DNA from: Saprospira grandis str. Lewin
GTDB lineage: Bacteria > Bacteroidota > Bacteroidia > Chitinophagales > Saprospiraceae
Direction of reading: 5' to 3'
DNA: 64,000 nucleotides
Assembly: GCF_000250635.1 (NCBI RefSeq)
Contig: NC_016940.1
Coordinates: 1,839,001 to 1,903,000 of the forward strand
Of the stretch, positions 5,265 through 61,459 are shown in pieces (the first letter of the stretch is position 1; each line of letters begins with the position of its first letter). The translations under genes and the position numbers were made by a program. The notes below the pieces were generated by a model. It saw only the letters and a list, made by a program, of their open reading frames with translations, was not told the DNA's origin and searched no databases.

Positions 5265-5386
5265 GGCCTAGCTGCCTGAAGCAGTGTGGCGGAGCCACAG
5301 ACCGAGGCGCTAAAAGCGCTGAGGGCCGAGCAGGCTTGCGAGCTGCGCAAGGGAGCGGCCGCTGAAAGCGGCAGGCCCCAAAAAAA
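5265..5386 (-). repeat. GC-rich dispersed repeat, copy 1 (type A)
   Basis: Copy in minus orientation lying between rplO and secY, with its A-rich end (GGCCCCAAAAAAA) toward the rplO stop. Read on the minus strand it has the core CAGCTCGCAAGCCTGCTCGG, a hairpin with arms AGCGC/GCGCT, then GGTCTG and a hairpin with arms GTGGC/GCCAC. This is one of about 20 copies in the window. The other flanking sequence of the 4981-5474 gap shows no gene. Confidence 0.85.
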
Positions 5387-5425
5387 CCTTAATAAGGGGA
5401 GCTAAAGCATTAGACACTTGGGGTA

Positions 5426-5457
5426 CAAAAAAGAAGGAGAAAGTAGAATTTCTCCTT
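5426..5457 (-). terminator. Rho-independent terminator after rplO
   Basis: On the minus strand AAGGAGAAA pairs with TTTCTCCTT around a 6-nt loop and is followed by CTTTTTTG. An outer GGTACAA/TTGTACC pairing flanks it. It lies just after the rplO stop and probably ends the S10-spc transcript before secY. Confidence 0.7.
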
Positions 5458-5474
5458 TTAGGCTTGTACCGATT

Positions 5475-6164
5475 TTAGCCGAGCAGAGAGACTGCTGCGC
5501 CTAAGGCTTCGATTTGAGTTTTGACTTCATCGTCTACCTTAGTAGCTTGGAGGTCAAATTTAGTTTTGAGGCTACCTTCAGCGATAACGTGCAACTTATC
5601 ATCTTCATTTAGGTGCTTAAAGTGCTCGGCCAATTCTTTGGCGCCTACGGCAGAGAGCTTAGCAGCTTCTGCGACACCTTGGATTTGGTTAGCTTTAACG
5701 ATAAGCATGCAGCTTCCTCCTTTTTCTTCGATAGCTGTTTTGGCAGCTTTAGAGAAGCGGAAGGCAGAAACTTGAAGAGCGGCAGTTAGTTCACCTTGAG
5801 CGAGGACCTTGAACTGTTCGTTCTTTTTGATGAGGCCAGCAGCGACTAGCGTATTGATATCGACAGTAGTCGTATTCATTTTGTTGGCTGCATCTTGGAT
5901 GTCGTTCAAATTTACTACAGTGAAGCTATCGGGTTGGTAAGATTGATAGCGGCGGGCAGTATTTTTGAATCCGCGTTTAGGCAAGCGCATTTGGATAGGC
6001 ATTTGACCACCTTCATGGCCTCTTTTGCTTTTATATCCAGAGCGAGATTTTGCACCTTTATGACCGCGAGTAGAAGTTCCACCACGGCCTGAGCTAGTCC
6101 CACGTCCGACGCGTTTGCGATTCTTTACGGCACCGTTAGCGGGTTTGAGGTTACTCAGTTTCAT
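5475..6164 (-). CDS. rplO: 50S ribosomal protein L15 with duplicated C-terminal half-domain
   Basis: Late-assembly large-subunit protein. Residues 1-155 are a normal L15: basic Gly-rich N-terminus with KNRKRVGRGTSSGRGGTSTR and GHEGGQMPIQMRLPKRGFKN, then the globular domain. The protein does not stop near 150 but runs to 229 residues. Residues 190-228 align without gaps to 117-155: FKVLAQGELTAALQVSA against LHVIAEGSLKTKFDLQA, and KTAIEEKGG against KTQIEALGA. By my count 11 of 39 positions are identical. This looks like an internal duplication of the C-terminal half. The surface of the ribosome it would occupy is unknown. Confidence 0.95.
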   Translation of the reverse strand: MKLSNLKPANGAVKNRKRVGRGTSSGRGGTSTRGHKGAKSRSGYKSKRGHEGGQMPIQMRLPKRGFKNTARRYQSYQPDSFTVVNLNDIQDAANKMNTTTVDINTLVAAGLIKKNEQFKVLAQGELTAALQVSAFRFSKAAKTAIEEKGGSCMLIVKANQIQGVAEAAKLSAVGAKELAEHFKHLNEDDKLHVIAEGSLKTKFDLQATKVDDEVKTQIEALGAAVSLLG

Positions 6165-6205
6165 TATGTGAAATGTTTTACTGATGAGAAAAGGAGGAGC
6201 TTAAA

Positions 6206-6385
6206 TTAGAGCTCTTCTACTTTTAGCAAGTGTTTAACTTTATTGATCATTCCGGCTACCTGAGGAGTTACAACTTGCTCAGAAGACTGATTGATTTTGC
6301 GCAGACCTAGGGCTACCATAGTTGCCTTTTGGTCTTTAGGACGATCGATAACACTTTTAATTTGCGTGATACGTACTTTTTTCAT
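6206..6385 (-). CDS. rpmD: 50S ribosomal protein L30
   Basis: A 59-residue small large-subunit protein read directly from the minus strand. It starts MKKVRITQIKSVIDRPKDQK and ends KHLLKVEEL before TAA. The KxTLxxLGL-like segment appears as KATMVALGLRKINQSV. It lies between rpsE (20 bp) and rplO (41 bp), as expected. Confidence 0.95.
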   Translation of the reverse strand: MKKVRITQIKSVIDRPKDQKATMVALGLRKINQSSEQVVTPQVAGMINKVKHLLKVEEL

Positions 6386-6405
6386 GATATCAGAGAGGTT
6401 AAGGA

Positions 6406-6921
6406 CTATCCGTTAAAAACTTTTTCGAGTTTGATTCCTCTAGTTTTAGCTACTTGAGCTGGCGTACGTAGTTTTTGCAAAGCGTCGATAGTAGCTTTGA
6501 TTACGTTATGAGGGTTAGAAGAACCGAGAGATTTGGCGAGTACGTTATGGACGCCGGCTACTTCTAGGACGGCGCGCATAGCACCACCAGCGATTACCCC
6601 TGTACCGTCGGCAGCGGGGCGGATAAGTACTTTACCTGCGCCAAACTTACCGTGTTGTTCGTGCGGGATAGTTCCGTTTAGTACGGGCACTTTAACGAGA
6701 TTCTTTTTAGCTTCATCTGCGGCTTTAGTGATAGCTGCAGAGACTTCGCGGGCTTTACCGAGGCCGTGGCCTACTTGTCCGTTTCCGTCTCCAACTACAA
6801 CGATAGCGGCGAAGCTGAAGGTACGGCCTCCTTTGGTCACTTTAGAGACACGGTTGAGGGCGACCAATTTATCTTGGAATTCAGTATCTACTGGCTTTAC
6901 GCGATTAGATTTCTTTGCCAT
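6406..6921 (-). CDS. rpsE: 30S ribosomal protein S5
   Basis: Small-subunit protein important for decoding accuracy, 171 residues. The double-stranded-RNA-binding N-domain contains [20 protein letters not shown] and [10 protein letters not shown]. The C-domain contains [20 protein letters not shown] and the SSNPHNV motif. It is a standard spc-operon member. Confidence 0.98.
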
Positions 6922-6948
6922 GGTTAATATTGGTTTTCGCTAGATGAT

Positions 6949-7329
6949 TTAGAATTGAAGGAGCTCATTGCTACCATCTTCTTTTTGTGCACCGCGAGCG
7001 CCTTCAGCGAGGGCTTTGATGCGGCCGTGGTAGAGATAGCCACCACGATCGAAGACAACCGTGTTGATCCCTTTTTCCATTGCTTTTTTAGCGGTTAGGG
7101 CACCAACGAGGCGAGCTTTTTCAGATTTATTGACATTTTGGCCATCAATTCCGTCTTCTTTAGAGCTAGCGGAGACCAAGGTTGTGCCAGCGATATCATC
7201 GATAAGCTGGACATATATATGAGAGTTGCTTCTGTATACTGTCATGCGTGGGCGCTCGGCAGTACCTTTAAGCTTTTTGCGGATTCTTCTGTGAATGCGC
7301 TGACGACGAGTCATTTGTTTTGAAGCCAT
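6949..7329 (-). CDS. rplR: 50S ribosomal protein L18
   Basis: 5S rRNA-binding protein, 126 residues. The basic N-terminus ([20 protein letters not shown]) and the segment [20 protein letters not shown] are characteristic. It lies between rplF and rpsE in standard order. Confidence 0.98.
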
Positions 7330-7388
7330 AATAGAGAGCTATAAAACTGTTCGCAAAAAATGAAAAAATTAGATGAAGGAGGCTGCGA

Positions 7389-7943
7389 TTATTTGGCAGC
7401 GGTTTTACCGGCTTTTCTACGGATTTGTTCTCCTTTGAAGCGTACACCTTTACCTTTGTAGGGTTCGGGTTTGCGGAAGCTACGGATTTTGGCAGCTACT
7501 TGGCCGATAAGTTGTTTATCGAAAGACTCTAGAGTCACCAAGGGGGGCGTACCTTTTTTGGTTTCTGTAGTTACACTTACTTCTTCTGGGAGGTAGAACA
7601 TAACGGGGTGAGAGTAACCTAGGGCCAATTCTAGGAGTTGGCCTTTATTGCTAGCGCGGTAACCCACACCATGCAATTCCAGTTCTACTTTATAGCCTTG
7701 AGAAACTCCTTCAATCATGTTAGCGATCAGCTGGCGATAGAGGCCATGCATAGCTTTATGACGTTTTTGCTCGGTAGCGCGAGATACTAGTACCTGACCA
7801 TCTTCAATTTTGGCAGAGATACCAGAAGAGGCAATTTCTTGAGAGAGTTGGCCTTTAGCGCCTTTAACCTCTACGAGATTACCTTTGATATTAACTTCTA
7901 CGCCCGCTGGAATTTCAATAGGCAGTTTTCCTATACGAGACAT
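7389..7943 (-). CDS. rplF: 50S ribosomal protein L6
   Basis: Two-domain large-subunit protein near the factor-binding site, 184 residues. It begins MSRIGKLPIEIPAGVEV and ends with the conserved IRSFRKPEPYKGKGVRF segment followed by a basic tail. It is a standard spc-operon member. Confidence 0.98.
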   Translation of the reverse strand: MSRIGKLPIEIPAGVEVNIKGNLVEVKGAKGQLSQEIASSGISAKIEDGQVLVSRATEQKRHKAMHGLYRQLIANMIEGVSQGYKVELELHGVGYRASNKGQLLELALGYSHPVMFYLPEEVSVTTETKKGTPPLVTLESFDKQLIGQVAAKIRSFRKPEPYKGKGVRFKGEQIRRKAGKTAAK

Positions 7944-7983
7944 GCTATTATTTTTTAAATCTTATTAAATCTGAGAAAAGGGC

Positions 7984-8388
7984 TTAGTAGATATAGAAGA
8001 GTACTTCACCACCTACATTCTCTTCACGAGCTTTTTTGTCTGTGATTACCCCTTTAGAGGTAGAGATGATTGCCAAGCCTAGGCCGTTAATTACGCGGGG
8101 TAGCTCATCGGCCTTCACATAGTGACGGAGGCCTGGGCGGCTAATGCGCTTCATTTTACGAATAACGGGTTGCTTAGAAGAAGCATCGTATTTGAGAGCG
8201 ATTTTAATAACTCCTTGTTTGTTAGAAGTTTCTTCAAACTTGTAACGGAGGATATAGCCCTGATCATAAAGAATTTCAGTAATTCTTTTTTTCAGATTAG
8301 AGGCTGGAATTTCGACGACGCGATGTTTAGCCATCTGGGCATTGCGGATTCGAGTTAGGTAGTCCGCAACAGGATCTGTTACTGCCAT
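7984..8388 (-). CDS. rpsH: 30S ribosomal protein S8
   Basis: Central-domain 16S rRNA-binding protein, 134 residues. It has [18 protein letters not shown] at the N-terminus and the C-terminal [20 protein letters not shown] signature. In E. coli S8 is the spc-operon repressor; its target site is not identifiable here. Confidence 0.98.
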
Positions 8389-8485
8389 GATTGCAATGTT
8401 ATCGCTAAAATTATCTCAGTGAAGAGAGATCTTTTAGCTGATGAATAAATTTTGAATTCTAGTTCGAAAGCGTAGAGAGTGAAAA

Positions 8486-8755
8486 TTACCAGCTAGCCTT
8501 GGTTACACCAGGAATTTTGCCAGCTAGAGCCATTTCGCGGAACTTCACACGGCAGAGGCCAAATTGGCGCATATAGCCTTTGGGGCGTCCGGTTAATTTG
8601 CAACGGTTGTGCAAGCGGACTTTAGAAGAGTTTTTGGGCAACTTATCTAGTTCGTCCCAACGACCTTCTTTTTTGAGTTGTTCGCGGCGAGCGGCATATT
8701 TTTGCACTAGGCGCTCTCTTTTCTTTTCTCTTGCGATTACGGATTTACGGGCCAT
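8486..8755 (-). CDS. rpsN: 30S ribosomal protein S14
   Basis: Small-subunit head protein, 89 residues. It is the long, zinc-independent form: it lacks the CxxC pairs of the short form and has the [20 protein letters not shown] region. Its start is 2 bp from the rplE stop, which implies translational coupling. Confidence 0.98.
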
Positions 8756-8757
8756 AA

Positions 8758-9312
8758 TTAGCTTTTAGTTTTAAAGGGTAGTCCAAGAAGAGTGAGTAAT
8801 TCTAGAGATTCCTCATCTGTTGGAGCCGAAGTGACAAAAGTGATATCCATACCTGTGATACGAGGAATTTTGTCCAAGTTGATCTCAGGGAAGATAATTT
8901 GTTCTGTTACACCTAGGGTGTAATTACCTCTACCATCAAAGCTTTTGTTGCTAATACCGCGGAAGTCACGTACACGAGGGAGAGCAACATTGATTAGGCG
9001 ATCGAGGAATTCATACATATTGGTGCCACGTAGAGTTACGCGAGCGCCGATAGGCATACCTTCACGGAGTTTGAAGTTTGAGATAGACTTCTTGGCTCTA
9101 GTTTTCACGGCACGCTGACCAGTGATAAGAGTTAGCTCCTCGACAGCATTATCAACCAACTTTTTGTCAGAGGTAGCCATTCCTACACCTTGGCTTACGC
9201 AGATTTTCTCCAACTGGGGTACTTGCATGATGCTTTTGTACTGAAACTTTTCTTTCAGCTTAGCAACCACCTCTTCTTGGTATTTCTGCTTTAATCTAGG
9301 TTGATAGCTCAT
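8758..9312 (-). CDS. rplE: 50S ribosomal protein L5
   Basis: 5S rRNA-binding protein of the central protuberance, 184 residues. Signature segments are [20 protein letters not shown] and the later [20 protein letters not shown]. It is tightly packed with rplX and rpsN (2-bp gaps). Confidence 0.98.
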
Positions 9313-9314
9313 TA

Positions 9315-9644
9315 TTAAATAACTTGATTTGTTTTCTTAGAAATGCGGACCTTTTTGCCGTCTTGAATTTCCATTTTCACCTTGCTAGCTACGCCTTCAG
9401 CGTCTACGAGCATAAGGTTAGAAACGTGAAGAGAGGCTTCTTTTTCGATGATGCCACCTGCGCGTTCGTTAGTAGCGCGGATATGTTTTTTCACCTTATT
9501 GAGGCCTTCTACAATTGCACGTTGCTCTAGAGGAAAGGTTTTTACTACTTTACCAGTATTGCCTTTTTCGTCTCCAGAGATCACTTTTACGGTGTCTCCC
9601 ACTTTAACGTGTAGTTTCACCTTAGTTTGCTTTTTGTTTGCCAT
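9315..9644 (-). CDS. rplX: 50S ribosomal protein L24
   Basis: Assembly-initiating large-subunit protein, 109 residues, with the KOW motif near residues 14-40 ([20 protein letters not shown]). It is separated by 2 bp from both rplN and rplE. Confidence 0.97.
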
Positions 9645-9646
9645 GA

Positions 9647-10015
9647 TTATAGTACTTCAGGAGCGAGTGAAACAATTTTCATAAAGTCGCGCTCGCGCAA
9701 CTCACGGGCTACTGGGCCAAAAATACGAGTTCCTCTTGGCTCTTCCGAGGCATTGAGGAGAACAACTGCATTGTCATCAAAGCGAATATAAGAACCGTCT
9801 TGGCGACGAATTTCTTTCTTCGTGCGTACGATTACCGCCTTAGAAACAACGCCTTTTTTTACCTGACCGCCAGGAGCTGCATCCTTTACCGTAACTACAA
9901 TGATGTCACCGATAGAGGCATAACGACGTTTAGAGCCACCAAGCACCTTAATACAAAGTACTTCTTTGGCTCCCGTGTTATCAGCTACTCGCAGTCTACT
10001 TTCTGCTTGTATCAT
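9647..10015 (-). CDS. rplN: 50S ribosomal protein L14
   Basis: Large-subunit interface protein, exactly 122 residues as in most bacteria. It begins [19 protein letters not shown] and contains the [20 protein letters not shown] signature. Confidence 0.98.
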
Positions 10016-10027
10016 GATAAAATATAA

Positions 10028-10294
10028 TTATTTCGCACGTTCAATAATCTCAACCAGTCTCCAGCGCTTCTTTTTGCTCAAGGGTCGAGTTTCCATAATG
10101 CGAACGACATCGCCTGTGTTGCAGTCGTTCTTCTCATCATGAGCGCTAAACTTCTTGGTCGTTTTTACAAACTTACCATAGATGGGGTGCTTCACCCGGC
10201 GCTCAACAGAAACAGTGATGGTTTTATCCATCTTGTTGCTGGTCACGATACCTACACGTTGCTTGCGCAGATTGCGTGTTGATTCTGTTGCCAT
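10028..10294 (-). CDS. rpsQ: 30S ribosomal protein S17
   Basis: OB-fold 16S rRNA-binding protein, 88 residues. It has [20 protein letters not shown] and the C-terminal [20 protein letters not shown] signature. It lies between rpmC and rplN. Confidence 0.98.
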
Positions 10295-10321
10295 TAGATT
10301 AGATTTAAAATTTTTCTATTC

Positions 10322-10573
10322 CTATTTCTTCTTTCTACGAGCCCGGATGCGATCCCGCTTGAGGTCGCCAGCTTCTTCTAGCTGCTTCAATTCACGAGCA
10401 CGAAGCTCCGTCTTGATTCTCGCAATGTTCTTACGAGCCAGCTTAAGATCGCTAGGACGGGCCAAAGCAGAAACATTGTGCTGATAAACCATCTCGTGCA
10501 AAGCAGTCTCTGCTTGCTCAAGGGCTTCTCTCAGCTGCTCGTCTGTCATAGACGTTGCCTTAATCTTGTCCAT
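10322..10573 (-). CDS. rpmC: 50S ribosomal protein L29
   Basis: Helical-hairpin protein at the peptide-exit rim, 83 residues. It carries the family pattern LREALEQAETALHEMVYQHN and KLARKNIARIKTELRAREL. A basic C-terminal extension (about residues 66-83) makes it longer than the usual 63-70. It lies in operon with rplP (14 bp). Confidence 0.96.
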   Translation of the reverse strand: MDKIKATSMTDEQLREALEQAETALHEMVYQHNVSALARPSDLKLARKNIARIKTELRARELKQLEEAGDLKRDRIRARRKKK

Positions 10574-10587
10574 TACCTATAAATCTA

Positions 10588-13568: not shown

Positions 13569-13710
13569 TTTTTTGGGGCCTGCCCTCGCTTCGCTCAGGC
13601 CGTTCCCTTCCGCAGCTCGCAAGCCTGCTCGGCCCTTTCGGGCTGCCGGCAAAGCCGGCACCGCTACAGGCAACTAGGCCTGCGGCGGCTCCGCCGCCTG
13701 CTTTACGCAG
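13569..13710 (+). repeat. GC-rich dispersed repeat, copy 2 (type A)
   Basis: Plus-orientation copy inserted between rplW and rplB, inside the S10 gene cluster, with its T/A-rich end about 70 bp from the rplB start. It has the core CGCAGCTCGCAAGCCTGCTC, the stems GCCGGC/GCCGGC and GGCGGC/GCCGCC, and the distal CTAGGCC end. Confidence 0.85.
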
Positions 13711-16051: not shown

Positions 16052-16216
16052 GGCCTAGCGATGTGCAGCAGTGGCGCGAAGCGCCAGACCGAGCATAGCG
16101 AGGGCCGAGCGAACAGCGAGCTGCGACAACCAGCCCCTATAGGGGCGCCAGTTCGACGACCATAGGGAGTAAACGTAGCGCCGCAAGGCGAAGCCGAAGC
16201 GGAGGCCCCAAAAAAA
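16052..16216 (-). repeat. GC-rich dispersed repeat, copy 3 (type A with extra module)
   Basis: Minus-orientation copy between fusA and rpsJ. In addition to the usual core and hairpins it carries an extra module, GTTCGACGACCATAGGGAGT, that recurs in copy 13 and in its attached fragment. The A-rich end (GGAGGCCCCAAAAAAAC) faces the fusA stop. Confidence 0.85.
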
Positions 16217-19633: not shown

Positions 19634-19760
19634 CTTTTAGGGGCCTGCGGGCTGCGCCCGCCGCTCCCCTTCAGGGCTCGCAAGTCTGCTCGGCCCTGCA
19701 GCGGCGGCAAAGCCGCCGCTTGGGTCTGGCCTGCGGCCCCCCTTGCGGGCAGCTAGGCCG
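19634..19760 (+). repeat. GC-rich dispersed repeat, copy 4 (type A)
   Basis: Plus-orientation copy upstream of rpsL. Its core is GCTCGCAAGTCTGCTCGG, its first stem AGCGGCGGC/GCCGCCGCT, its second stem GCC/GGC around TG, and its distal end AGCTAGGCCG. The interval 19761-19921 after it shows no gene. Confidence 0.85.
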
Positions 19761-19921: not shown

Positions 19922-20046
19922 GGCCTAGCGATGTGGAGGGGTGGCCGAAGGCCAGACCGAAGCGCGCAGCGCTGAAGGGCCGAGCAGACCTGCGAGCCCC
20001 AAAACGTAGCGCCGCAAGCGCAGCGCAGCGGAGGCCCCAAAAAAAT
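19922..20046 (-). repeat. GC-rich dispersed repeat, copy 5 (type A)
   Basis: Minus-orientation copy whose A-rich end (GGAGGCCCCAAAAAAA) faces, and lies about 27 bp before, the start of the GH3/beta-lactamase gene at 20073. It forms an inverted pair with copy 4, 160 bp away. Confidence 0.85.
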
Positions 20047-24005: not shown

Positions 24006-24165
24006 TCTTTTTTGGGGCTGCCCCGCCCTGCGGGCGGGTCGGGCCATTGCGCAGCTCGCAGGTCTGCTCGGCCCTGCGGCGCTACGCGCCTTGGTCTGCC
24101 GCCTGCGGCGGCCCTGCTACAGCCCCTCAGCCGATTCGCTGGCTGAATAGCCAGCGAGAGGGCCG
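24006..24165 (+). repeat. GC-rich dispersed repeat, copy 6 (type B)
   Basis: Plus-orientation type B copy (GGGGCTGCCCCGCC start, CCTCAGCC distal end) between hipB and the metallopeptidase gene. Its stems are GGCGC/GCGCC around TAC and CCGCC/GGCGG, with a further distal hairpin TCGCTGGC/GCCAGCGA at 24136-24157. Confidence 0.85.
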
Positions 24166-26379: not shown

Positions 26380-26498
26380 GGCCTAGCGATGTGCAGCAGT
26401 GGCCCGAAGGGCCAGACCAAAGCCCGAAGGGCTGCAGGGCCGAGCGAACAGCGAGCTGCGGAACGTAGCGCCTGCCGCAGGCAGGAGGCCCCAAAAAA
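26380..26498 (-). repeat. GC-rich dispersed repeat, copy 7 (type A)
   Basis: Minus-orientation copy ending GGAGGCCCCAAAAAAT only about 10 bp before the histidine kinase start at 26508. Its distal TAGCGATGTGCAGCAGTGG end, stems GGCCC/GGGCC and the core are typical. Confidence 0.85.
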
Positions 26499-29735: not shown

Positions 29736-29807
29736 GGCCCATTCGTCTATCGGTTAGGACGCCAGGTTTTCATCCTGGAAAGAGGGGTTCGATTCCCCTA
29801 TGGGCTA
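29736..29807 (+). tRNA. tRNA-Glu (TTC), copy 1
   Basis: A 72-nt cloverleaf. The acceptor GGCCCAT pairs with ATGGGCT (a G-U at position 1-72). The anticodon stem is CCAGG/CCTGG with loop TTTTCAT, giving anticodon TTC. The T-arm is GAGGGGTTCGATTCCCC. The CCA end is not encoded. It is identical to the next two genes. Confidence 0.97.
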
Positions 29808-29838
29808 CTTTTTTAGTTCTTTTTTTGAACGCCATTAT

Positions 29839-29910
29839 GGCCCATTCGTCTATCGGTTAGGACGCCAGGTTTTCATCCTGGAAAGAGGGGTTCGATTCCC
29901 CTATGGGCTA
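29839..29910 (+). tRNA. tRNA-Glu (TTC), copy 2
   Basis: Identical in sequence to the gene at 29736-29807. The 31-nt spacer before it contains T runs and GTTC-T7-GAAC, which can form a small hairpin between the tRNAs. Confidence 0.97.
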
Positions 29911-29944
29911 CTTTTTTTAGTTCTTTTTTTGAACGCCATTTTAT

Positions 29945-30016
29945 GGCCCATTCGTCTATCGGTTAGGACGCCAGGTTTTCATCCTGGAAAGAGGGGTTCG
30001 ATTCCCCTATGGGCTA
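29945..30016 (+). tRNA. tRNA-Glu (TTC), copy 3
   Basis: Third identical copy. The 34-nt spacer before it differs from the first spacer only by a few extra bases, so the 103-106 bp unit was probably duplicated recently. Confidence 0.97.
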
Positions 30017-30821: not shown

Positions 30822-30948
30822 TTTTTTGGGGCCTCAGCTGCGCTGCGCTTGCTGCGCTACGTTTCGCAGCTCGCAGGTCTGCTCGGCCCTGCGGCGCTAA
30901 AGCGCCTTGGTCTGGCCCTTTGGGCCACTGCTGCACATCGCTAGGCCG
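30822..30948 (+). repeat. GC-rich dispersed repeat, copy 8 (type A)
   Basis: Plus-orientation copy 9 bp upstream of the secreted-protein start at 30813. Its stems are GGCGC/GCGCC around TAAA and GGCCC/GGGCC around TTT, and the distal end GCACATCGCTAGGCCG is canonical type A. Confidence 0.85.
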
Positions 30949-31571: not shown

Positions 31572-31711
31572 AGGCCCGAAGGGCCGCAGGCTGAGGGATG
31601 GATAGCAGGGCCGCCGAAGGCGGCAGACCAAAGCGCTGAAAGCGCTGCAGGGCCGAGCGAACAGCGAGCTGCGACACAGCCCGACCCGAGCGAAGCGAGG
31701 GGCAGCCCCAA
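31572..31711 (-). repeat. GC-rich dispersed repeat, copy 9 (type B)
   Basis: Minus-orientation type B copy (GCTGAGGGATGG distal end, GGGGCAGCCCC proximal end) about 24 bp before the TPR gene start at 31735. Its stems are GCCGCC/GGCGGC and AGCGC/GCGCT around TGAA. Confidence 0.85.
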
Positions 31712-35067: not shown

Positions 35068-35220
35068 TTTTTGGGGCTGCCCTTGCGGCCTACGGCCTTG
35101 GGTCGGGCTCTGTCGTGGCTCGCAGGTCTGCTCGGCCCTGCGCCAGCAAGCTGGCTGGGTCTGCGGCTGCGCCGCCCCACTTTCTATCCCTCAGCCGGCT
35201 CGCTGCGCTCGCCCTGCCCG
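35068..35220 (+). repeat. GC-rich dispersed repeat, copy 10 (type B)
   Basis: Plus-orientation type B copy between the two small paralogous secreted genes. Its first stem is GCCAGC/GCTGGC around AA and its second CGGC/GCCG, different sequences from other copies but still complementary. The core begins with GTGGCTCG instead of GCAGCTCG. Confidence 0.85.
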
Positions 35221-35586: not shown

Positions 35587-35746
35587 GCAGGGCGCAAAGC
35601 GCCCGCAGGCTGAGGGATGGACAGCAGGGCCCCGAAGGGGCAGACCAAAGGCTTTTGAAGCAAAGCGAAAAAGCCTGCAGGGCCGAGCAGACCTGCGAGC
35701 TGCGATACAGCCCGACCCGCCCAGAGGGCGGGACAGCCCCAAAAAA
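35587..35746 (-). repeat. GC-rich dispersed repeat, copy 11 (type B)
   Basis: Minus-orientation type B copy upstream of sucA and in inverted relation to copy 10. Its first stem has a long arm pair, AGGCTTTT/AAAAGCCT, instead of the usual GC arms; the second is GGCCCC/GGGGC. Confidence 0.85.
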
Positions 35747-40510: not shown

Positions 40511-40672
40511 TTTGGGGCCCGCGGCCGGCTAGGCTTCGCCTAGGTCGGCCGCCGCTATGCTGCGGGGCTCACAGGTCTGTTCGGCCCTGCGGCGGCTTTG
40601 CCGCCTTGGTCTGGCGCTGTGCGCCACCCCTCCGCAGCGCTGGGCCTGCGGCGCTTCGCGCCTGCATAACGC
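40511..40672 (+). repeat. GC-rich dispersed repeat, copy 12
   Basis: Plus-orientation copy after manC. The core is slightly diverged (GGGGCTCACAGGTCTGTTCGG). The stems are GGCGGC/GCCGCC around TTT and GGCGC/GCGCC around TGT, with an extra CTAGGC/GCCTAG stem near the start. Confidence 0.8.
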
Positions 40673-40752: not shown

Positions 40753-40816
40753 TAGGCCCATTTGTTAGCATTTTGTTAAAAATAGAAAAAACGCAACAAA
40801 ATGAAAAAAGGCAAAA

Positions 40817-41131
40817 GTTAGGTCCAGAACTAAACCAGTTGTGTCTGGAGCTAAACCAGTTAGGTCCAGAACTAAACTAGTTGTGTCTGGAGCTAAACCA
40901 GTTAGGTCTGGAGGTAAACCAGTTAGGTCTAGAGCTAAACTAGTTAGGTCTGGAGCTAAACCAGTTAGGTCTGGAGGTAAACCAGTTAGGTCTAGAGCTA
41001 AACTAGTTAGGTCTGGAGCTAAACCAGTTAGGTCTGGAGGTAAACCAGTTAGGTCCAGAACTAAACCAGTTGTGTCTGGAGCTAAACTAGTTAGGTCTGG
41101 AGGTAAACCAGTTAGGTCCAGAGCTAGGGCT
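40817..41131 (+). repeat. 21-bp tandem repeat array
   Basis: Fifteen head-to-tail units of 21 bp with no spacers; the last is degenerate. Each unit begins GTTAGGTCTGGAGCTAAAC or a close variant. Four unit variants occur, and units 6-8 (40922-40984) equal units 9-11 (40985-41047), a 63-bp higher-order period. One plus frame is open and would encode a VRSGAKP-type heptapeptide, but it has no ATG before the array. Probably non-coding. Confidence 0.95.
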
Positions 41132-41683
41132 GTTCAGGATTTTGTGTATTAGAATAAAATTTGGGCCTTTAGCTGCTTAGGATTTGGCCAATCATCGCCT
41201 AGGGACAAGCCGGGACTGTTCAGGATTTTGTGTATCAGAATAAAATTTGGGCCTTTAGCTTGTTAGGATTTGGCCAGTAGTCGCCTAGGGACAAGCCCCT
41301 AGGCTAACCCAATGGAGTCAGCCCTCTGCGAGGGCATCAACTGTTGATATACAAGACATTGTTCAGTTATTATCGCAGAGAAGAACCTTATCCAAAGGCC
41401 CTCTTTAGAGGGCTGTCTGAAAAAGCTAGCCTAGGGGCTTGTCCCTAGGCAGCAAAAAGGAGAAACACAAAATTTTAAACAGTCTCGACAAGCCCCTAGG
41501 CTAACCCAATGGAGTCAGCCCTCTGCGAGGGCCTCAACGGTTGATATACAAGGCCGTGTTCAGTTGTTATCGCAGAGAAAAACCTCATCCAAAGGCCCTC
41601 TTTAGAGGGCTGTCTGAAAAAGCTAGCCTAGGGGCTTGTCCCTAGGCAGCAAAAAGGAGAAACACAAAACTTTAAACAGACTC
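41130..41683. mobile_element. IS-like non-autonomous element cluster with nested inverted repeats
   Basis: Two left-end copies of about 87 bp, both starting CTGTTCAGGATTTTGTGT, lie at 41130 and 41217. Two central blocks of about 196 bp end in ACACAAAATTTTAAACAG-type sequence at about 41483 and 41680, an imperfect inverse of the left end. Inside each block a 17-24 bp perfect inverted repeat (41283-41306 with 41427-41450; 41487-41503 with 41624-41640) encloses two GCCCTC/GAGGGC hairpins and a TCAAC/GTTGA hairpin. No transposase is encoded. It reads as tandemly duplicated MITE-like elements. Confidence 0.7.
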
Positions 41684-41883
41684 AGCGGCGGCAAAGCCGC
41701 CGCATGGCCGAAGGCCAAACGGCCACAACAAGCCCTTTAGGGCGCAGTTCGACGACCAACGGGAGTAACCGATGGGCAGCAGTGGCCGCAGGCCAGACCG
41801 AAGCCCAAAGGGCTGAAGGGCCGAGCGAATAGCGAGCTGCGAACCGTAGCGCCGACGAGCATAGCGAGGCGGAGGCCCCAAAA
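41684..41883 (-). repeat. GC-rich dispersed repeat, copy 13 (long type A)
   Basis: Minus-orientation long copy. It carries the extra module GCAGTTCGACGACCAACGGG, also seen in copy 3, then the distal GGCAGCAGTGGCC, the core and GGAGGCCCCAAAACAAC. It directly abuts the IS-like cluster. Confidence 0.85.
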
Positions 41884-45044: not shown

Positions 45045-45200
45045 TTTTGGGGCTGCCCCGCCTTTTAGGCGGGTCGGGCTGTATCGCAGCTCGCAAGTCT
45101 GCTCGGCCCTGCGCCGCCTTTGGCGGCTGGGTCTGGCCCTTCGGGCCACTGCTGTCCATCCCTCAGCCGATGGGCCTTCGGCCCAGGCGGCTGCGCCGCC
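45045..45200 (+). repeat. GC-rich dispersed repeat, copy 14 (type B)
   Basis: Plus-orientation type B copy about 33 bp upstream of the ccmE start. Its stems are GCCGCC/GGCGGC around TTT and GGCCC/GGGCC around TTC, and its distal end CCATCCCTCAGCC is canonical. No gene lies in the rest of 45013-45323. Confidence 0.85.
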
Positions 45201-46823: not shown

Positions 46824-46970
46824 GGCGCGCAGCGCCTTGGCTGAGGGATGGTAGGGGGTGGCCGAAGGCCAGACCGAGCTTTTGAGCGAAGCGAAAAAGC
46901 GAAGGGCCGAGCGAACAGCGAGCCCCCGCACAGCCCGACCCGCCTGCAAGGCGGGGCAGCCCCAAAAAAA
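46824..46970 (-). repeat. GC-rich dispersed repeat, copy 15 (type B)
   Basis: Minus-orientation type B copy between convergent genes. Its first stem uses AGCTTTT...AAAAGC arms around GAGCGAAGCG, unlike the GC arms of most copies. Its A-rich end faces the dnaN terminator. Confidence 0.85.
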
Positions 46971-50431: not shown

Positions 50432-50585
50432 TTTTGGGGCCTCCGCTGCGGCTTCGCCTTGCGGCGCTACGTTTCGCAGCTCGCTATTCGCTCGGCCCTG
50501 CGGCGCTTGCAGCGCCTTGGTCTGGCCCTTCGGGCCACTGCTGCACATCGCTAGGCCGTTTTGGCCTGCGGCCAAAGTTGGCCGC
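50432..50585 (+). repeat. GC-rich dispersed repeat, copy 16 (type A)
   Basis: Plus-orientation copy between the two OmpA-type lipoprotein genes, 33 bp upstream of the 49356-50399 gene start. Its stems are GGCGCT/AGCGCC around TGC and GGCCC/GGGCC around TTC, and its distal end GCACATCGCTAGGCCG is canonical. Confidence 0.85.
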
Positions 50586-52189: not shown

Positions 52190-52348
52190 GCGGCGGACAG
52201 GCGGCGAAGCCGCCGCAGGCCTAGCTGCCTGTAGGGGTGCCGCGCAGCGGCAGACCGAGCCGCCTTGGGCGGCGAAGGGCCGAGCAGACCTGCGAGCCCC
52301 GAAAGGGAGCGCCGCAAGGCGCAGCCGAGCGGAGGCCCCTTAAAAAAA
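52190..52348 (-). repeat. GC-rich dispersed repeat, copy 17 (type A)
   Basis: Minus-orientation copy upstream of the isc operon. It shows stems GCCGCC/GGCGGC and TGCCGC/GCGGCA, with a further GGCGGC/GCCGCC stem at its distal start. Its end is slightly altered (GGCCCCTTAAAAAAA). The remaining 52349-52506 carries the iscS promoter region. Confidence 0.85.
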
Positions 52349-56080: not shown

Positions 56081-56108
56081 AGTTAGTATTTTACAGTAAA
56101 AAATGGGG

Positions 56109-56324: not shown

Positions 56325-56338
56325 AGTTCTGTTTTATA

Positions 56339-56500
56339 TTTTTTTTGGGGCTGCCCCTGCGCTTCGCTTGGGTCGGGCTGTGTCGTGGCTCGCAAGTCTG
56401 CTCGGCCCTGCAGTTTTTTCGCTACGCTCAAAAACTTGGGTCTGCGGCTTTGCCGCACCACTGTCCATCCCTCAGCCGCTCCACCGAGGAGCCAGCTAAA
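56339..56500 (+). repeat. GC-rich dispersed repeat, copy 18 (type B)
   Basis: Plus-orientation type B copy 14 bp upstream of the 71-residue gene. Its first stem is AGTTTTT/AAAAACT around a long loop and its second CGGC/GCCG. The pairing survives although the arms are AT-rich. Confidence 0.85.
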
Positions 56501-56526
56501 GGCTTTGGGCTTCGGCCCTTTTGGTT

Positions 56527-57000
56527 TTATTGGGCGGCCACAATATCCCTTATAATTTTGAGATGATGATTCGTATGAATGGCTACAAACTTAATGCCTT
56601 GGTTTCTTCTAAGGTGGCCAAAAAAAGGATGGTCGAAATAAGCTTTTTCTGCTTGTTTTTGGACCAATTGCAGCAGGGCCTCGCTTTTTTCCAATAAGCT
56701 AGGCAACTGACTAAGGTCTATGGCTTCTCGGTTGTTAATCATCTTTGGGGCCTTGGCTTTTCCTCTGGGAATTTTGCCCGTGGCCAAAATCAGTGATTTA
56801 GAGGGGCTAAACTTGGGTTTAAACTGAGCGGGATCGCTATCGACAATGGCTTGCAACATAGCAATAGCTGCCTTAAGCGAGTGCTCAATATGCCAATCTA
56901 CCCCTCTTTCCGATACCTCAGGGGCCAAAAGCGGCCCTTGCTCCAAATAGCTGGCTAAATCCTTTAGGCTCTGCTGAGCCATATCTACTTCTTTTTTCAT
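56527..57000 (-). CDS. DUF1569/DinB-superfamily protein, paralog 2
   Basis: A 157-residue helical protein. The C-terminal motif FDHPFFGHLRRNQGIKFVAI followed by HTNHHLKIIRDIV contains the His ligands typical of DUF1569/DinB four-helix bundles. VDWHIEHSLKAAIAMLQAIV supplies another His. It is about as long as, and closely similar to, the gene 24 bp upstream. DinB-fold enzymes are often metal-dependent thiol transferases; the activity here is unknown. Confidence 0.8.
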   Translation of the reverse strand: MKKEVDMAQQSLKDLASYLEQGPLLAPEVSERGVDWHIEHSLKAAIAMLQAIVDSDPAQFKPKFSPSKSLILATGKIPRGKAKAPKMINNREAIDLSQLPSLLEKSEALLQLVQKQAEKAYFDHPFFGHLRRNQGIKFVAIHTNHHLKIIRDIVAAQ

Positions 57001-57024
57001 AAAAAATTCCAGATTTGAGGGAGA

Positions 57025-57504
57025 CTAATTAGCTTGAGCGGCTAAAATATCTTGAATAATCTTGAGATGGTGATTCGTATGAATAGCCACAAACCTCAGG
57101 GCTTCATTTCGTTTCATATGGCCAAAAATGGGATGATCGAAATAACTTTTTTCGGCCTTGTTTTGAGCGCCCAGCAGCAAGTTTCTCAATTTTTCGATCA
57201 TTTCGGGGACTTTGCCTAATGAAATCTCCCCTTTGTTATTTAAAATATCTGGCGAGACGGCCCGCCCTCTAGGAATTCGCCCCATTCGGAGAATCAGGGT
57301 TTTAGTAGGGCTAAATTTGGGTTTAAACTGAGCGGGGTCACTTTCTTCTAATGCATCAATAATTAAGATTGCTGCTTTTAGGCTATGTTCTATATGCCAA
57401 TCAATGGCTCTAGCCGATACCTTTGGCGCTCCGATTGAGGCATGAGGCAAGCTGGCCTCTAATTGGTCTACAGCGCTCTTGATCAGCTGAATTTGTTTTT
57501 CCAT
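57025..57504 (-). CDS. DUF1569/DinB-superfamily protein, paralog 1
   Basis: A 159-residue protein sharing with its neighbour AIDWHIEHSLKAAILIIDAL, FKPKFSPTKTLILRMGRIPR and FDHPIFGHMKRNEALRFVAI, then HTNHHLKIIQDIL. The tandem pair arose by gene duplication. Metal-binding His positions are intact in both. Confidence 0.82.
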   Translation of the reverse strand: MEKQIQLIKSAVDQLEASLPHASIGAPKVSARAIDWHIEHSLKAAILIIDALEESDPAQFKPKFSPTKTLILRMGRIPRGRAVSPDILNNKGEISLGKVPEMIEKLRNLLLGAQNKAEKSYFDHPIFGHMKRNEALRFVAIHTNHHLKIIQDILAAQAN

Positions 57505-57540
57505 AACGTTCTTTGCTTAGATTTTGTAATCATGGAGATA

Positions 57541-57715
57541 GGCGGGGGCGAAGCCTTTTTGGCCCGCAGGGCCTTTTTGTCGAGCCGGCCCAGCGCTGCG
57601 GAGGGGTGGCCGCAGGCCAGACCGAGCCGCTGAAAGCGGCGAAGGGCCGAGCAGACCTGCGAGCCCCGCAGCATAGCGGCGGCCGCCCATGGGCGGCCGC
57701 GGGCCCCAAAAAAAA
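57541..57715 (-). repeat. GC-rich dispersed repeat, copy 19
   Basis: Minus-orientation copy between secA and the DUF1569 pair. It has stems GCCGCT/AGCGGC and TGGCC/GGCCA, and a very strong extra palindrome, GCGGCCGCCCATGGGCGGCC, next to its A-rich end. Confidence 0.85.
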
Positions 57716-57744
57716 GCCCACTTACAAGAAAGATACTTATAAGT
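57708..57744 (-). terminator. Terminator after secA
   Basis: On the minus strand ACTTATAAG pairs with CTTGTAAGT (one G-U) and is followed by GGGC and eight T. The T run merges with the A-rich end of repeat copy 19. Confidence 0.7.
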
Positions 57745-57774
57745 GAGCGATTTATGGGTATAAACTAAATCAAA

Positions 57775-60700
57775 TTAGTTTTTGCCGTGGCAATGCTTGT
57801 ATTTTTTGCCGCTACCGCAGGGGCAAAGATCGTTGCGACCGACCTTATTTTCTACACGGCGAGGGGCTACTCTAGGAGCGGGGCCTTGAGGTTGTTGCGC
57901 AGCCTGTTTTTGGGCCTCCTCTTTCGCTTTTTGCTCTTCGATATTGCTGTGTACCTCCTCGAAGTACTCCTCTTCTTCTACCTCCTGTGCTTCTTGGATT
58001 TGGCTTTCCTGTTGGATAGGAATTAGGCCACGGAACAAGAAAGAGCAAACCTCTTGATTGATTCGGCTACGGAGTTGGGCAAAAAGCTTGCGCGACTCAA
58101 TTTTGTAGACCACCAAGGGGTCTTTTTGGGCAAAAGAAGCATTTTGGACCTGATCCTTGAGCTCATCCATATCGCGGAGGTGCTCCTTCCAATTAGAATC
58201 GATAAGGGCCAAAGTGATTGAGCGTTCGATTTGGTTAATCAGGCTCTTGCCATTAGTTTTCACGGCCTGTTCCATATCGGCATTGATTTCCAGGGCCTGG
58301 ATACCGTTAGTAAAGGGGATAGCAATTTTTGTAAAGTTATTGCTTTCGTCCTCATAGATCCGTTGGATAAGCGGCAAAATAGCCTGAGCGATATGCTCGA
58401 ACTTGCGGTTATAGGCGGCAAAAAGCGGGGCCGACAGTTGGTCCGTCAAATCATTGGGATCTGTCGTATAGAGCTCTTCAGCTGTAATTTGTGGATCGAT
58501 ACCAAAGTTTTGGATCATGGCCTGTTCGAAGCCCTCATAATTGCGTTCATTTTGATATTGAGCGATCAATTCATAGAGCAAATCGAGGAACATATCGTTG
58601 AGGTCAATCGCTAGGCGATCGCCTTCTAGGGCATTATTACGGCGGCGGTAAATTTCTTCCCGCTGCATATTCATTACATCATCATATTCGAGTAGGCGTT
58701 TACGAATACCGAAGTTATTCTCTTCCACCTTCTTTTGTGCTCTTTCGATCGACTTGCTAATCATGGGATGTTGCAAAACATCGCCTTCTTTATGGCCTAG
58801 GCGGTCCATCATTTTAGCGATACGATCGGAGCGGAAAAGGCGCATCAGTTTATCTTCTAGAGAAACATAAAACTGAGAAGAACCTACATCTCCTTGACGG
58901 CCGGCACGACCACGGAGCTGGCGATCTACCCGGCGAGAATCGTGGCGTTCTGTACCAATAATGGCCAAACCGCCCAATTGTTTCACCTCATCGCTTAGTT
59001 TAATATCGGTACCACGACCGGCCATGTTGGTGGCAATGGTCACCTGTCCACTCTTACCCGCTTCTGCTACTACATCGGCCTCGCGGGCGTGCTGTTTAGC
59101 GTTAAGTACATTATGCGGAATTTTGCGGAGGCTAAGCATACGGCTCAAGACCTCTGAGCTTTGGACCGAAGTTGTACCGACAAGGATAGGTCGGCCAGCT
59201 TCACGCATCTTTATCACCTCTTCAATGATCGCATTATACTTTTCGCGTTCTGTCTTATAGACCAAATCGTTACGGTCATCACGGGCGATTGGGCGGTTGG
59301 TGGGAATAATCACCACATCCAATTTATAAATATCCCAAAGCTCCTGTGATTCCGTTTCCGCTGTACCGGTCATCCCTGCCAGTTTGTGGTACATTCGGAA
59401 GAAGTTCTGTAGCGTTACGGTAGCATAAGTTTGGGTAGAGTTTTCGATCTCTACATTTTCCTTAGCTTCTAGTGCTTGGTGTAGGCCGTCCGAATAGCGG
59501 CGGCCATCCATAACCCGGCCCGTTTGCTCATCGACAATTTTCACCTTGCCCTCTACAACAATATATTCATCTTCTTTATGGAAGAGTGCATAAGCCTTAA
59601 GCAATTGGCGCATAGCATGCAGGCGCTCACTTTTGGCGGCAAAAGCCTGAATCAACTCATCTTTTTTGAGCTGTTTGTCTTCGGGGCTGAGGCTGCTATT
59701 ATTATCTACTTGCAAGAGTTTATCATTGATATCCTCCATAACAAATAGGTGCTTATCAGAGCCTCCCTTACCCAATAAATCTGTTCCTCGGTCGGTCAGT
59801 TCTACACTGCGGTTTTTCTCTTCGATCACAAAAAACAGTTCAGCATCGGCTTTGTGCATATGCTTACTTTGTTCGGCCATATAATGCGCCTCTGTTTTCT
59901 GTAGAATTTGCTGCATACCGGGTTCACTCAAAAACTTAATGAGTGCGCGGTTTTTGGGTAGACCACGATAGGCGCGGAAAAGATCGAGTCCTCCCCCACC
60001 CTCTTCGGGTCCAGTATCGCCAGCGGCAATTTTTTGTTTAGCCGAGCGGATGAGTTGAACGACCAATTTCTTTTGGGCATTCATAATATGCTCTACAGCA
60101 GGCTTGAGGCTCAAAAATAGCTCTGCGCGATCATCTTTGGGCGTTGGGCCAGAAATAATGAGTGGTGTACGGGCATCATCAATCAAGACCGAGTCCACCT
60201 CATCAATCATGGTATAATGAAACTTACCTTGTACTTTTTCATCTACCTTATGGACCATATTATCTCTTAGATAATCAAAACCAAATTCGTTATTGGTTCC
60301 ATAAGTTACATCACAACGGTAAGCCGCCTTGCGTCCATCAGAATGCGGGCGATGCTTATCAATACAATCTACAGTAAGGAAAAGGAAGCTCAACAAGGGC
60401 GCCATCCATTCGGCATCCCGTTTAGCTAGATAATCGTTCACGGTAATAATATGCACCCCTTCACCGGCCAAACCATTCAGGTAAGCGGGCAAAGTAGCCA
60501 CTAGGGTTTTACCTTCCCCCGTCGCCATCTCGGCAATTTTACCTGAGTGCAAAACGGCACCACCAATAAGCTGCACATCGTAGTGGATCATATTCCAGAC
60601 CACCTCATTTCCAGCAGCCATCCAGCGGTTTTTCCAGATTGCCTTATCTCCATTTAGTTCTAGCGGACGGACCTCATCATTGATCCAATTCCCCACCACC

Positions 60701-61107
60701 TCATGATCAAAATCAGTAGCGGTCACCTCTAGGGTTTCTTCTTCTGTAAAACGGCGAGCCGTTTCTTTAACTACAGCAAAAGCCTGAGGCAAGAGATTTT
60801 CTAGAATTTCCTCTAGGCGCTGATCGCGGTCCTTTTTCAATTGGTCCACTTCCTTATAAAGATCTTCTTTTTTGAAGATATCTTCGGTAGAGACCGCCTG
60901 CTCTTGCAGCTTTTCAATCTCTACATCAATATCTGCCAAATAATCTTTAATGGCCGCTCTAAATTCAATTGTTTTATGACGGAGCTCGTCATGGCTCAAG
61001 CTCTTGAGCTTGGCGTACTCCTCGTTAATTTGGGCCACTACAGGGCGCAACTCTTCAATATCGCGCTCTTGCTTGTTCCCAAATATCTTTTTTAAGAAAC
61101 CAAACAT
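57775..61107 (-). CDS. secA: Protein translocase ATPase SecA
   Basis: A 1110-residue motor that pushes preproteins through SecYEG. Walker A lies in EMATGEGKTLVATLPAYLNG (about residue 200), the DEAD-type box in HYTMIDEVDSVLIDDARTPL (about 300), and the second helicase domain has TIATNMAGRGTDIKL and RQLRGRAGRQGDVGSS. The C-terminal zinc motif CPCGSGKKYKHCH binds SecB or ribosomes in this family. An insertion-rich region and acidic linker make it longer than the about 900 residues of E. coli SecA; this length is common in Bacteroidota. Confidence 0.98.
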   Translation of the reverse strand: MFGFLKKIFGNKQERDIEELRPVVAQINEEYAKLKSLSHDELRHKTIEFRAAIKDYLADIDVEIEKLQEQAVSTEDIFKKEDLYKEVDQLKKDRDQRLEEILENLLPQAFAVVKETARRFTEEETLEVTATDFDHEVVGNWINDEVRPLELNGDKAIWKNRWMAAGNEVVWNMIHYDVQLIGGAVLHSGKIAEMATGEGKTLVATLPAYLNGLAGEGVHIITVNDYLAKRDAEWMAPLLSFLFLTVDCIDKHRPHSDGRKAAYRCDVTYGTNNEFGFDYLRDNMVHKVDEKVQGKFHYTMIDEVDSVLIDDARTPLIISGPTPKDDRAELFLSLKPAVEHIMNAQKKLVVQLIRSAKQKIAAGDTGPEEGGGGLDLFRAYRGLPKNRALIKFLSEPGMQQILQKTEAHYMAEQSKHMHKADAELFFVIEEKNRSVELTDRGTDLLGKGGSDKHLFVMEDINDKLLQVDNNSSLSPEDKQLKKDELIQAFAAKSERLHAMRQLLKAYALFHKEDEYIVVEGKVKIVDEQTGRVMDGRRYSDGLHQALEAKENVEIENSTQTYATVTLQNFFRMYHKLAGMTGTAETESQELWDIYKLDVVIIPTNRPIARDDRNDLVYKTEREKYNAIIEEVIKMREAGRPILVGTTSVQSSEVLSRMLSLRKIPHNVLNAKQHAREADVVAEAGKSGQVTIATNMAGRGTDIKLSDEVKQLGGLAIIGTERHDSRRVDRQLRGRAGRQGDVGSSQFYVSLEDKLMRLFRSDRIAKMMDRLGHKEGDVLQHPMISKSIERAQKKVEENNFGIRKRLLEYDDVMNMQREEIYRRRNNALEGDRLAIDLNDMFLDLLYELIAQYQNERNYEGFEQAMIQNFGIDPQITAEELYTTDPNDLTDQLSAPLFAAYNRKFEHIAQAILPLIQRIYEDESNNFTKIAIPFTNGIQALEINADMEQAVKTNGKSLINQIERSITLALIDSNWKEHLRDMDELKDQVQNASFAQKDPLVVYKIESRKLFAQLRSRINQEVCSFLFRGLIPIQQESQIQEAQEVEEEEYFEEVHSNIEEQKAKEEAQKQAAQQPQGPAPRVAPRRVENKVGRNDLCPCGSGKKYKHCHGKN

Positions 61108-61185
61108 GCTAAGGTATAAAGTTTATAATCTGTAAATCAGAAAGGGGTTATCCCTTCCTGCCGTCTGCTCTGAGCAAAACTCATA

Positions 61186-61218
61186 CAAAAATACAACTTA
61201 AATAAAGAAGTTGCGCAA
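61186..61218 (-). promoter_or_regulatory. Candidate secA promoter
   Basis: On the minus strand TATTTTTG (61186-61193) fits TAnnTTTG, with TTG (61216-61218) 22 nt upstream. The start codon of secA is about 79 bp downstream. Confidence 0.5.
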
Positions 61219-61336
61219 TTAATGGCCGCAATTATAGCTCAAGGCCCTCATTATAGGGACTTTAGGCTTTTTTTATTTTATTTCCCTTGGCATAACCAAC
61301 TGACAATCTGTCAGTTTTATTTTAATTTAACTGCTA

Positions 61337-61459
61337 TTTTGGGGCCTCCGCCTCCCTTCGGTCGTCGGCGCTACGTTTCGCAGCTCGCTATTCGCTCGGC
61401 CCTGCGGCCTAACGGCCTGGGTCTGCGGCTGCGCCGCACTGCTTCACATCGCTAGGCCT
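61337..61459 (+). repeat. GC-rich dispersed repeat, copy 20 (type A)
   Basis: Plus-orientation copy between the araC-type gene and secA. Its stems are GGCC/GGCC around TAAC and CGGC/GCCG around TGC, and its distal end CACATCGCTAGGCC is canonical. No gene lies in the rest of 61108-61484. Confidence 0.85.

Follow-up and report, generated by a model that had tools for sequence, protein, structure and literature searches.

The 64,000-nt window analysed here, positions 1,839,001 to 1,903,000 of contig NC_016940.1 of Saprospira grandis str. Lewin, carries a dispersed, largely intergenic repeat whose long-range base pairing is preserved through wide sequence change. Comparison with two other Saprospira genomes showed that most sites are retained and that the hairpins there are often replaced. 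We put the chances at about even that this is a non-autonomous repeat of folded DNA, akin in its logic to repetitive extragenic palindromes (REPs) without being one, whose stems are exchanged among copies with the pairing preserved.

Copies were called with a covariance model, as the initial annotation had proposed. The model was built from 60 copies and run on a 464-kb sample, the window included, of the same genome (G000; a 4.35-Mb chromosome and a 54.9-kb second contig). The sampled stretches were picked by position; the second contig contributed two of them, and some copies were cut. The model found 20 copies in the window, in agreement with the estimate made from the letters alone, and 154 in the sample, these 20 included, which by extrapolation gives about 1,460 in the genome. 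The dispersed repeat is real: a core 20-mer matched the window 12 times at up to 3 mismatches and never matched in 100 shuffles (828 matches in the genome at the same threshold). Model matches are mostly 110–135 bp long, with a maximum of about 170.

The repeat contains seven helices: the hairpins H1, H2, H3 and a core hairpin, and the long-range helices P1, P3 and P4. On the strand on which it was first read (the written strand), the order from 5' to 3' is a T-run, GGGGC and the P1 5' arm, H1, J1, the P4 5' arm, the core, H2, GGTCT, H3, the P4 3' arm, J2 and the P1 3' arm. The shape can be drawn from one strand. P1 pairs the ends of the element (GGCCT/AGGCC, GGCTG/CAGCC, GGCCC/GGGCC or GGCTT/AAGCC) and encloses H1 and a long, mismatch-bearing stem made of P3 and P4, and this stem in turn encloses the core hairpin, H2 and H3. 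P3 is the pairing of J1 with J2, with conserved mismatches. P4 joins four bases 5' of the core to four bases 3' of the H3 region, with about 60–75 nt between the arms (variants GCAG/CTGC, GGGG/CCCC, AGGG/CCCT, GTGG/CCAC, GCCG/CGGC, GCGG/CCGC and CTGG/CCAG). The core reads CTCGC(AGGTCTG or TNNTCG)CTCGGCCC and contains the small hairpin. The initial annotation had all copies keep a core like CAGCTCGCAGGTCTGCTCGG followed by GGTCTG, which goes too far: others have the shorter core CTCGC TNNTCG CTCGG, and GGTCTG is missing from the copy at 13575–13680. Its two hairpins, H2 and H3, are real, but H1, the core hairpin, P1, P3 and P4 had been overlooked. All seven copies that it named were recovered (Table 1), and in each the stem 5' of GGTCTG pairs in the way claimed.

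Pairing was assessed in parsed sets of 168 copies (of 175) and 149 copies (of those 168), and in a larger set of 347; the 149 parsed copies, used for linkage, loops and folding, are a different set from the 149 core hits used below for gene placement. P4 was fully Watson–Crick in 329 of the 347 copies (shuffles: mean 99.0, maximum 121), and of its 1,388 cells just one was of wobble type; full pairing was found in 161 of 168 copies of the smaller set (shuffles: mean 50.7, maximum 68). P1 was paired in 347 of 347, in four letter states; its 3' arm was located by NNGCC, so only two of the five positions are a free test. In an alignment of Saprospira copies (A1), 88.9% of cells were paired, compared with 73.3% after shuffling and 32–50% with an arm slid by 1–3 columns, and two-sided changes numbered 304 against 106 shuffled. 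Another of the five measures taken on A1, further pair types, stood at 33 and did not exceed shuffles (mean 35.8). P3 pairing reached only 72.9% in A1 because of the conserved mismatches. The shuffled-core, P4-shuffle and slid-arm comparisons rule out chance or GC composition, including the possibility raised at the outset that the stems match by composition only.

Normalised mutual information was 0.99 between the P4 arms and 0.98 between J1 and J2, whereas P4 was linked to the core, H2 and H3 at 0.15, 0.21 and 0.36 (highest of 300 shuffles: 0.11, 0.19 and 0.35), and linkage between core and H2 was at shuffle level. Linkage tracks pairing more than distance, a contrast that descent by itself would hardly produce. 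The suggested selection on folding is borne out for pairing, since paired arms are in near-complete linkage and the modules between them are weakly linked.

The fate of individual copies was followed across some 140 kb of collinear sequence shared with two same-genus genomes, G001 and G002. The stretch holds 36 parsed G000 entries, one of them a double parse (copy 135658, false core 135623). Same-place counterparts were found for 33 of the 36 in G001 and for 28 in G002; at the unmatched sites a gap of like size lay at 2 of 3 (G001) and 7 of 8 (G002), so a copy overlooked by the parser is likely there. Flank identity was 94.1% for G000/G001 and 90.9% in the G002 comparison, and the first 20 kb, aligned in full, were 97% and 95% identical. 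Four of the 33 G000/G001 pairs were dropped because the core had been misread or H2 was too long. Of the 29 kept, 13 had the same H2 in both genomes; in 3 the only changes lay outside the stem, in 1 a single pair had changed on both arms, and in the other 12 the change affected several pairs or the length. Exactly one hairpin was replaced, with P4 the same, in 8 of the 29; at the copy at 24014–24132, H2 is the sole difference at the site. P4 had changed in 10 of the 29, in 8 of them on both arms (7 still fully paired), and both-arm changes numbered 5 in 24 G000/G002 pairs and 7 in 23 G001/G002 pairs (4 fully paired in each). One-armed single-pair changes were rare (1, 2 and 1 in the three comparisons). 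The compensatory change reported initially mostly keeps the pairing, but within the genus it is largely an exchange of whole hairpins and not stepwise compensatory mutation.

The same architecture recurs in relatives. The exact core pattern occurred in 8 of 60 genomes, the window's own included; three Saprospira genomes had 485, 463 and 831 matches, two others assigned to Saprospira had none, and the single match in G055 had an unrelated middle. Under strict filters and with up to 30 candidates scored per genome, the model matched 23 of 120 Saprospiraceae genomes, or 21 of 112 genera with Saprospira counted. With 12 candidates scored per genome, 2 of 296 genomes across the phylum matched, namely the window's own and one of the same family. 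A stricter pattern gave at least 120 stretches in named genomes, and among the matches listed the titles were Saprospira, Saprospiraceae, Saprospirales or Chitinophagales. Outside Saprospira, 70 distinct matches share the architecture but have other stems (P4 ATAG/CTAT, TTAG/CTAA and ATGG/CCAT; P1 GCATC/GATGC and GCGTA/TACGC; the core pair GC becoming AC/GT or GT/AC). In an alignment that was fitted to the model and is hence biased towards it, 86.0% of their cells were paired (65.8% shuffled, 31–49% slid), with 400 two-sided cells against 100 shuffled. The unpaired joints were conserved across genera, and copies from genera with few matches also kept their pairing.

Two further groups of relatives were seen. 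In G124, from another genus (L086–L101), the 16 best-scoring copies were near-uniform at 117–118 bp and many shared extra flank on both sides, as might be seen after a recent amplification burst. In G063, two weak model matches (L108:5110–5217 and 7399–7512) had a different core, GTACGGTAGCCTAGCCG, within the same outer architecture and possibly represent a sister subfamily. Carriage by phage was rejected: a filamentous-phage-like contig (L129) contained one exact match to the core, which scored only 17 bits (E 0.042) and was treated as chance, and two further pattern matches had no model match.

Gene placement of 149 core hits in the 464 kb, with self-trained gene calls, put 133 between genes and 3 within called genes; the other 13, with no gene to one side, were left unplaced. 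The intergenic hits comprised 79 in tandem gaps (38 in the same sense as the genes, 41 opposite), 30 in convergent and 24 in divergent gaps. No strand bias along the chromosome was seen in the larger set of copies (172 versus 175), and three window copies lie within a ribosomal-protein operon, one of them antisense. A terminator or leader role is unlikely because copies stand in both orientations, between genes and even inside this operon. Rho-independent termination was likewise rejected, as the T-run lies on the 5' side of the element. Among the 121 of 149 parsed copies with gene calls on both sides, a terminator-like stem before a T-run was found in 20 of 60 facing a gene end and 5 of 61 facing a gene start, and a T-run of at least 4 in 38 of 60 and 49 of 61. 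The run therefore belongs to the site or to the element in general, not to a terminator. At two operon places with copies here, the unaligned stretch was 298 and 265 nt, whereas G004 has 56 and 44 nt there. These copies must therefore have been either acquired in the Saprospira line or lost from G004.

The initial annotation left the choice between RNA and DNA open. We favour DNA, and the strand that folds is probably the one complementary to the written strand. TNC triloops made up 233 of 318 in the 149 parsed copies, with 3 GNA, and 28 of 57 in other genera, with no GNA; the latter count took every hairpin with a stem of at least 4, alternatives included, and left out G124. TNC as written becomes a C(GNA)G loop on the complement strand, and such loops are very stable hairpin loops in DNA. 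With DNA parameters the complement strand was the more stable in 137 of 149 Saprospira copies and, for other genera, in 44 of 48. G–T and A–C departures were equally rare in A1 outside P3 (4 each), and four tRNAs of the same genome had 4 G–T in 82 pairs, compared with the 1 in 1,388 of P4. This equal rarity, the lack of a gene-orientation bias and the better folding of the complement with DNA parameters are why DNA is favoured.

In the folded-DNA reading, the folded form would be single-stranded DNA of the complement strand with C(GNA)G loops. Some enzyme acting on single strands may read this shape and may have spread the repeat in the past, often beside T-runs. Copies would swap short stretches through the conserved joints, by gene conversion or template switching as the patterns suggest, and those left with unpaired arms would be removed or converted back. 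Present-day evolution would then be mainly short-stretch exchange between copies with pairing enforced, and the proposal requires no host benefit. More tentatively, the hairpins may be exchangeable cassettes, with the joints as crossover points, stems that swap faster than flanks mutate, and pairing enforced by an enzyme that reads the shape of single-stranded DNA; the element would then be inherited as a shape rather than a sequence.

Several observations weigh against the folded-DNA proposal. No mobilising enzyme for the repeat was found, and G017, a draft assembly with at least 29 copies, yielded neither a Y1 nor an RVT_1 gene. No clean new insertion with target duplication was seen; a copy present only in G002, relative to G000 and G001, gave no clear boundary. 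Changed H2 versions recurred elsewhere in 1.34 Mb of G000 in 10 of 18 cases, compared with 6 of 13 unchanged ones, and G001 versions were present in the G000 sample in 5 of 18; donors are not proven. P4 had changed on one arm only in 2, 1 and 2 pairs (G000/G001, G000/G002 and G001/G002), and hairpin changes at several pairs left broken pairs in 5 (G000/G002) and 4 (G001/G002). Linkage of 0.61 between P1 and J1 and 0.27 between J1 and P4 shows some shared descent of types. Single copies folded alone barely beat shuffles (z from +0.05 to −3.1 in six folds of three copies); the support for the structure is covariation, not folding energy. RNA parameters favour the complement strand too, less strongly (96 versus 53 in Saprospira, 36 versus 12 in other genera). 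P3 had A–C but never G–T, in 33 of 420 cells of A1 and 30 of 489 outside Saprospira, and P4 in other genera had 7 A–C and no G–T. With P3 and G124 set aside, the other genera had 16 G–T and 18 A–C, so wobble is not rare outside Saprospira.

Since A–C at P3 or P4 as written corresponds to G–U on complement-strand RNA, these departures, the strand asymmetry under RNA parameters and the joints conserved across genera speak for a structured RNA made from the complement strand, either regulatory or the product of a many-copy small non-coding RNA gene, and selected for RNA folding. We nevertheless consider it unlikely, because copies show no gene-orientation bias and occur in both senses in one ribosomal operon, Saprospira P4 is almost free of wobble, and the loop complements are GTCA or GTTA and not GNRA. 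Nor did Rfam offer a credible family: Rfam 15 matched only tRNAs in the window, and seven loci from other genera, searched at a loose threshold, yielded 12 weak matches, one of them over the element (HOTTIP_3, 17.9 bits; gathering threshold 50). Quite improbable in our view is a REP system, in which the copies would be REPs and an IS200-like transposase, the REP-associated tyrosine transposase (RAYT or TnpA-REP), would have moved them. REPs and the composite REPINs share with the repeat their intergenic position, a copy number in the hundreds, an imperfectly palindromic structure in which mismatches are conserved, and a folded single strand (PMC8266576). GTAG, the tag of REP hairpins, is found next to H1 of the complement strand in part of the copies, 133 of 347 in Saprospira and 32 of 48 from other genera; the remaining copies have other joints. 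REPs are, however, palindromes of 20–50 nt (same source), whereas the repeat is several-fold longer, multi-branched with seven helices and closed by an end helix, its hairpins are interchangeable, and no cognate Y1 gene adjoining it or flanked by it was found. The one Y1 (IS200-like) gene found in G000 (L026:9154–9582, minus strand) is bordered by a different repeat family, and none was found in G017, G070 or G076. RVT_1, the reverse transcriptase that a group II intron or retroelement would need in the genome, was not found in the draft assemblies G017 and G063 (at least 29 and 30 copies), and G000 has one such gene. Neither a RAYT nor a reverse transcriptase has support as the mobiliser.

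Two neutral accounts would produce the covariation as a by-product. Template switching during replication might perfect inverted repeats, so pairing could be corrected without selection, and the rarity of one-armed single-pair changes and of wobble in Saprospira P4 fits this. It is very unlikely to be the explanation, as P3 retains its mismatches, stems are swapped for different stems and not merely perfected, arms 60–75 nt apart change together across weakly linked modules, and the unpaired joints are conserved as well. Linear gene-conversion tracts covering both arms could also carry paired arms along together: several replaced interiors are contiguous, for example at window 26380–26492, and the weak linkage of P4 to core, H2 and H3 does exceed shuffles. 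This account has the slightest chance of all, because that linkage is far below the one between the P4 arms, single-hairpin swaps are so common (8 of 29) that unconstrained arms would separate, and pairing is kept in few-copy genera too.

The Y1 gene lies among tandem and inverted repeats with GCCTAGGGACAAGCCCCTAGGC (L026:8600–10100), some of them after GTAGTC, which form a REP-like family of their own. The GCCTAGGGACAAGCCCCTAGGC palindrome (up to 2 changes) also occurs at three places in the window, where the stretch 41283–41650 was noted for it.

Other known elements resemble the repeat in part. BIME, ERIC and BOX are composite bacterial repeats, short, non-coding and dispersed, with hairpins, as here. 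The repeat differs from them in its covariation over 60–75 nt, its single-hairpin swaps at orthologous sites and its occurrence in many genera with different stems. In integron attC sites one strand folds, and shape is conserved with free sequence and conserved mismatches. The likeness lies in the folding strand, the conserved shape and the mismatches, whereas the copies here are scattered; no recombinase boxes were recognised in the repeat by eye, and no integrase search was made. We know of no comparable multi-branched covariation in mitochondrial GC clusters, which are likewise GC-rich intergenic hairpin repeats but organellar. Mobile GC clusters and double-hairpin elements of yeast and fungal mitochondria are the subject of PMC4478555 and PMC2800124. 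Single-strand origins of rolling-circle plasmids carry the CS-6 motif TAGCGT (PMC4598088). They too are folded single strands, and 41 of 48 copies from other genera have TAGCGA on the complement strand, but a motif of six bases is weak evidence. The repeat differs in being chromosomal and of very high copy number, and TAGCGA is missing from 185 of 347 Saprospira copies.

As the initial annotation supposed, no description of the repeat was found in the open literature, going by titles and the opening of abstracts of papers on Saprospira or Saprospiraceae repeats and on dispersed repeats of Bacteroidetes; the text of the WH type-strain paper contains neither 'repeat' nor 'palindrom'. Nor did we find described in open literature the pattern of copies that stay in place with whole-hairpin exchange and mostly kept pairing. 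The repeat offers hundreds of natural replicates of folding DNA in which sequence turns over and shape is kept. This makes testable how structure is maintained under fast exchange, whether folded single-stranded chromosomal DNA is under selection, and how dispersed repeats evolve in concert. The covariance model serves a repeat that occurs across a bacterial family and that we found unannotated where this was checked: on two Saprospira plasmids, no feature of the gene table, which is incomplete, covers the best match.

Table 1 Copies of the folding repeat in the window and parts of the reference copy. An asterisk-free mark, "named", denotes the seven copies given in the initial annotation.
Feature	Position	Strand	Basis	Remarks
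Reference copy	24014..24132	+	covariance-model match, parse and pairing	named; T-run in front
P1 arms (reference copy)	24016-24020 / 24128-24132			
H1 (reference copy)	24022-24038			
J1 (reference copy)	24041-24050			
P4 arms (reference copy)	24051-24054 / 24114-24117			
Core (reference copy)	24055-24074			
H2 (reference copy)	24075-24092			
GGTCT (reference copy)	24093-24097			
H3 (reference copy)	24098-24112			
Copy	5265..5379	-	model and gene calls	between L15-like and SecY genes of ribosomal-protein operon, same sense
Copy	13575..13680	+	model and gene calls	between L23 and L2 genes, antisense to operon; no GGTCTG
Copy	16052..16209	-	model and gene calls	S10 and EF-G genes on either side; J1 holds an additional mini hairpin repeat
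Copy	19640..19759	+	covariance model	
Copy	19922..20038	-	covariance model	
Copy	26380..26492	-	model and site comparison	interior replaced in G001, P4 GCAG/CTGC -> AGGG/CCCT
Copy	30828..30947	+	model and site comparison	named; P4 GCAG/CTGC, GGGG/CCCC at this site in G001
Copy	31589..31709	-	covariance model	
Copy	35073..35196	+	covariance model	named
Copy	35608..35740	-	covariance model	
Copy	40514..40646	+	covariance model	named; H1 long
Copy	41762..41879	-	covariance model and site comparison	3' end joined to second dispersed repeat
Copy	45049..45168	+	model and site comparison	P4 GCAG/CTGC, GTGG/CCAC in G001
Copy	46839..46963	-	covariance model	
Copy	50436..50557	+	model and site comparison	named; H2 replaced in G001
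Copy	52218..52339	-	covariance model	
Copy	56347..56477	+	covariance model	named; AT-rich H2 (AGTTTTT/AAAAACT)
Copy	57587..57707	-	covariance model	
Copy	61341..61458	+	covariance model	named

The mini hairpin repeat inside J1 of the copy at 16052–16209 has the form TACTCCC...GGTCGTCGAACTG...TTGTTG. G001 and G002 do not have this mini repeat at that site, and elsewhere it substitutes for parts of other copies. At L055, about 7440–7980, in G000, the element and its flank form a tandem duplication with a unit of about 215 bp, and the extra units are not in G001 or G002. Another G000 copy is split by an insertion that carries a DDE transposase gene (Pfam DDE_Tnp_1, L054:11938–13410), and G001 and G002 are without the insertion. 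Elsewhere in the window, a 21-bp tandem repeat array of about 20 units occupies 40753–41172, and three near-identical tandem tRNA genes, the first typed as tRNA-Glu, lie at 29736–30016 with spacings of 103 and 106 bp.

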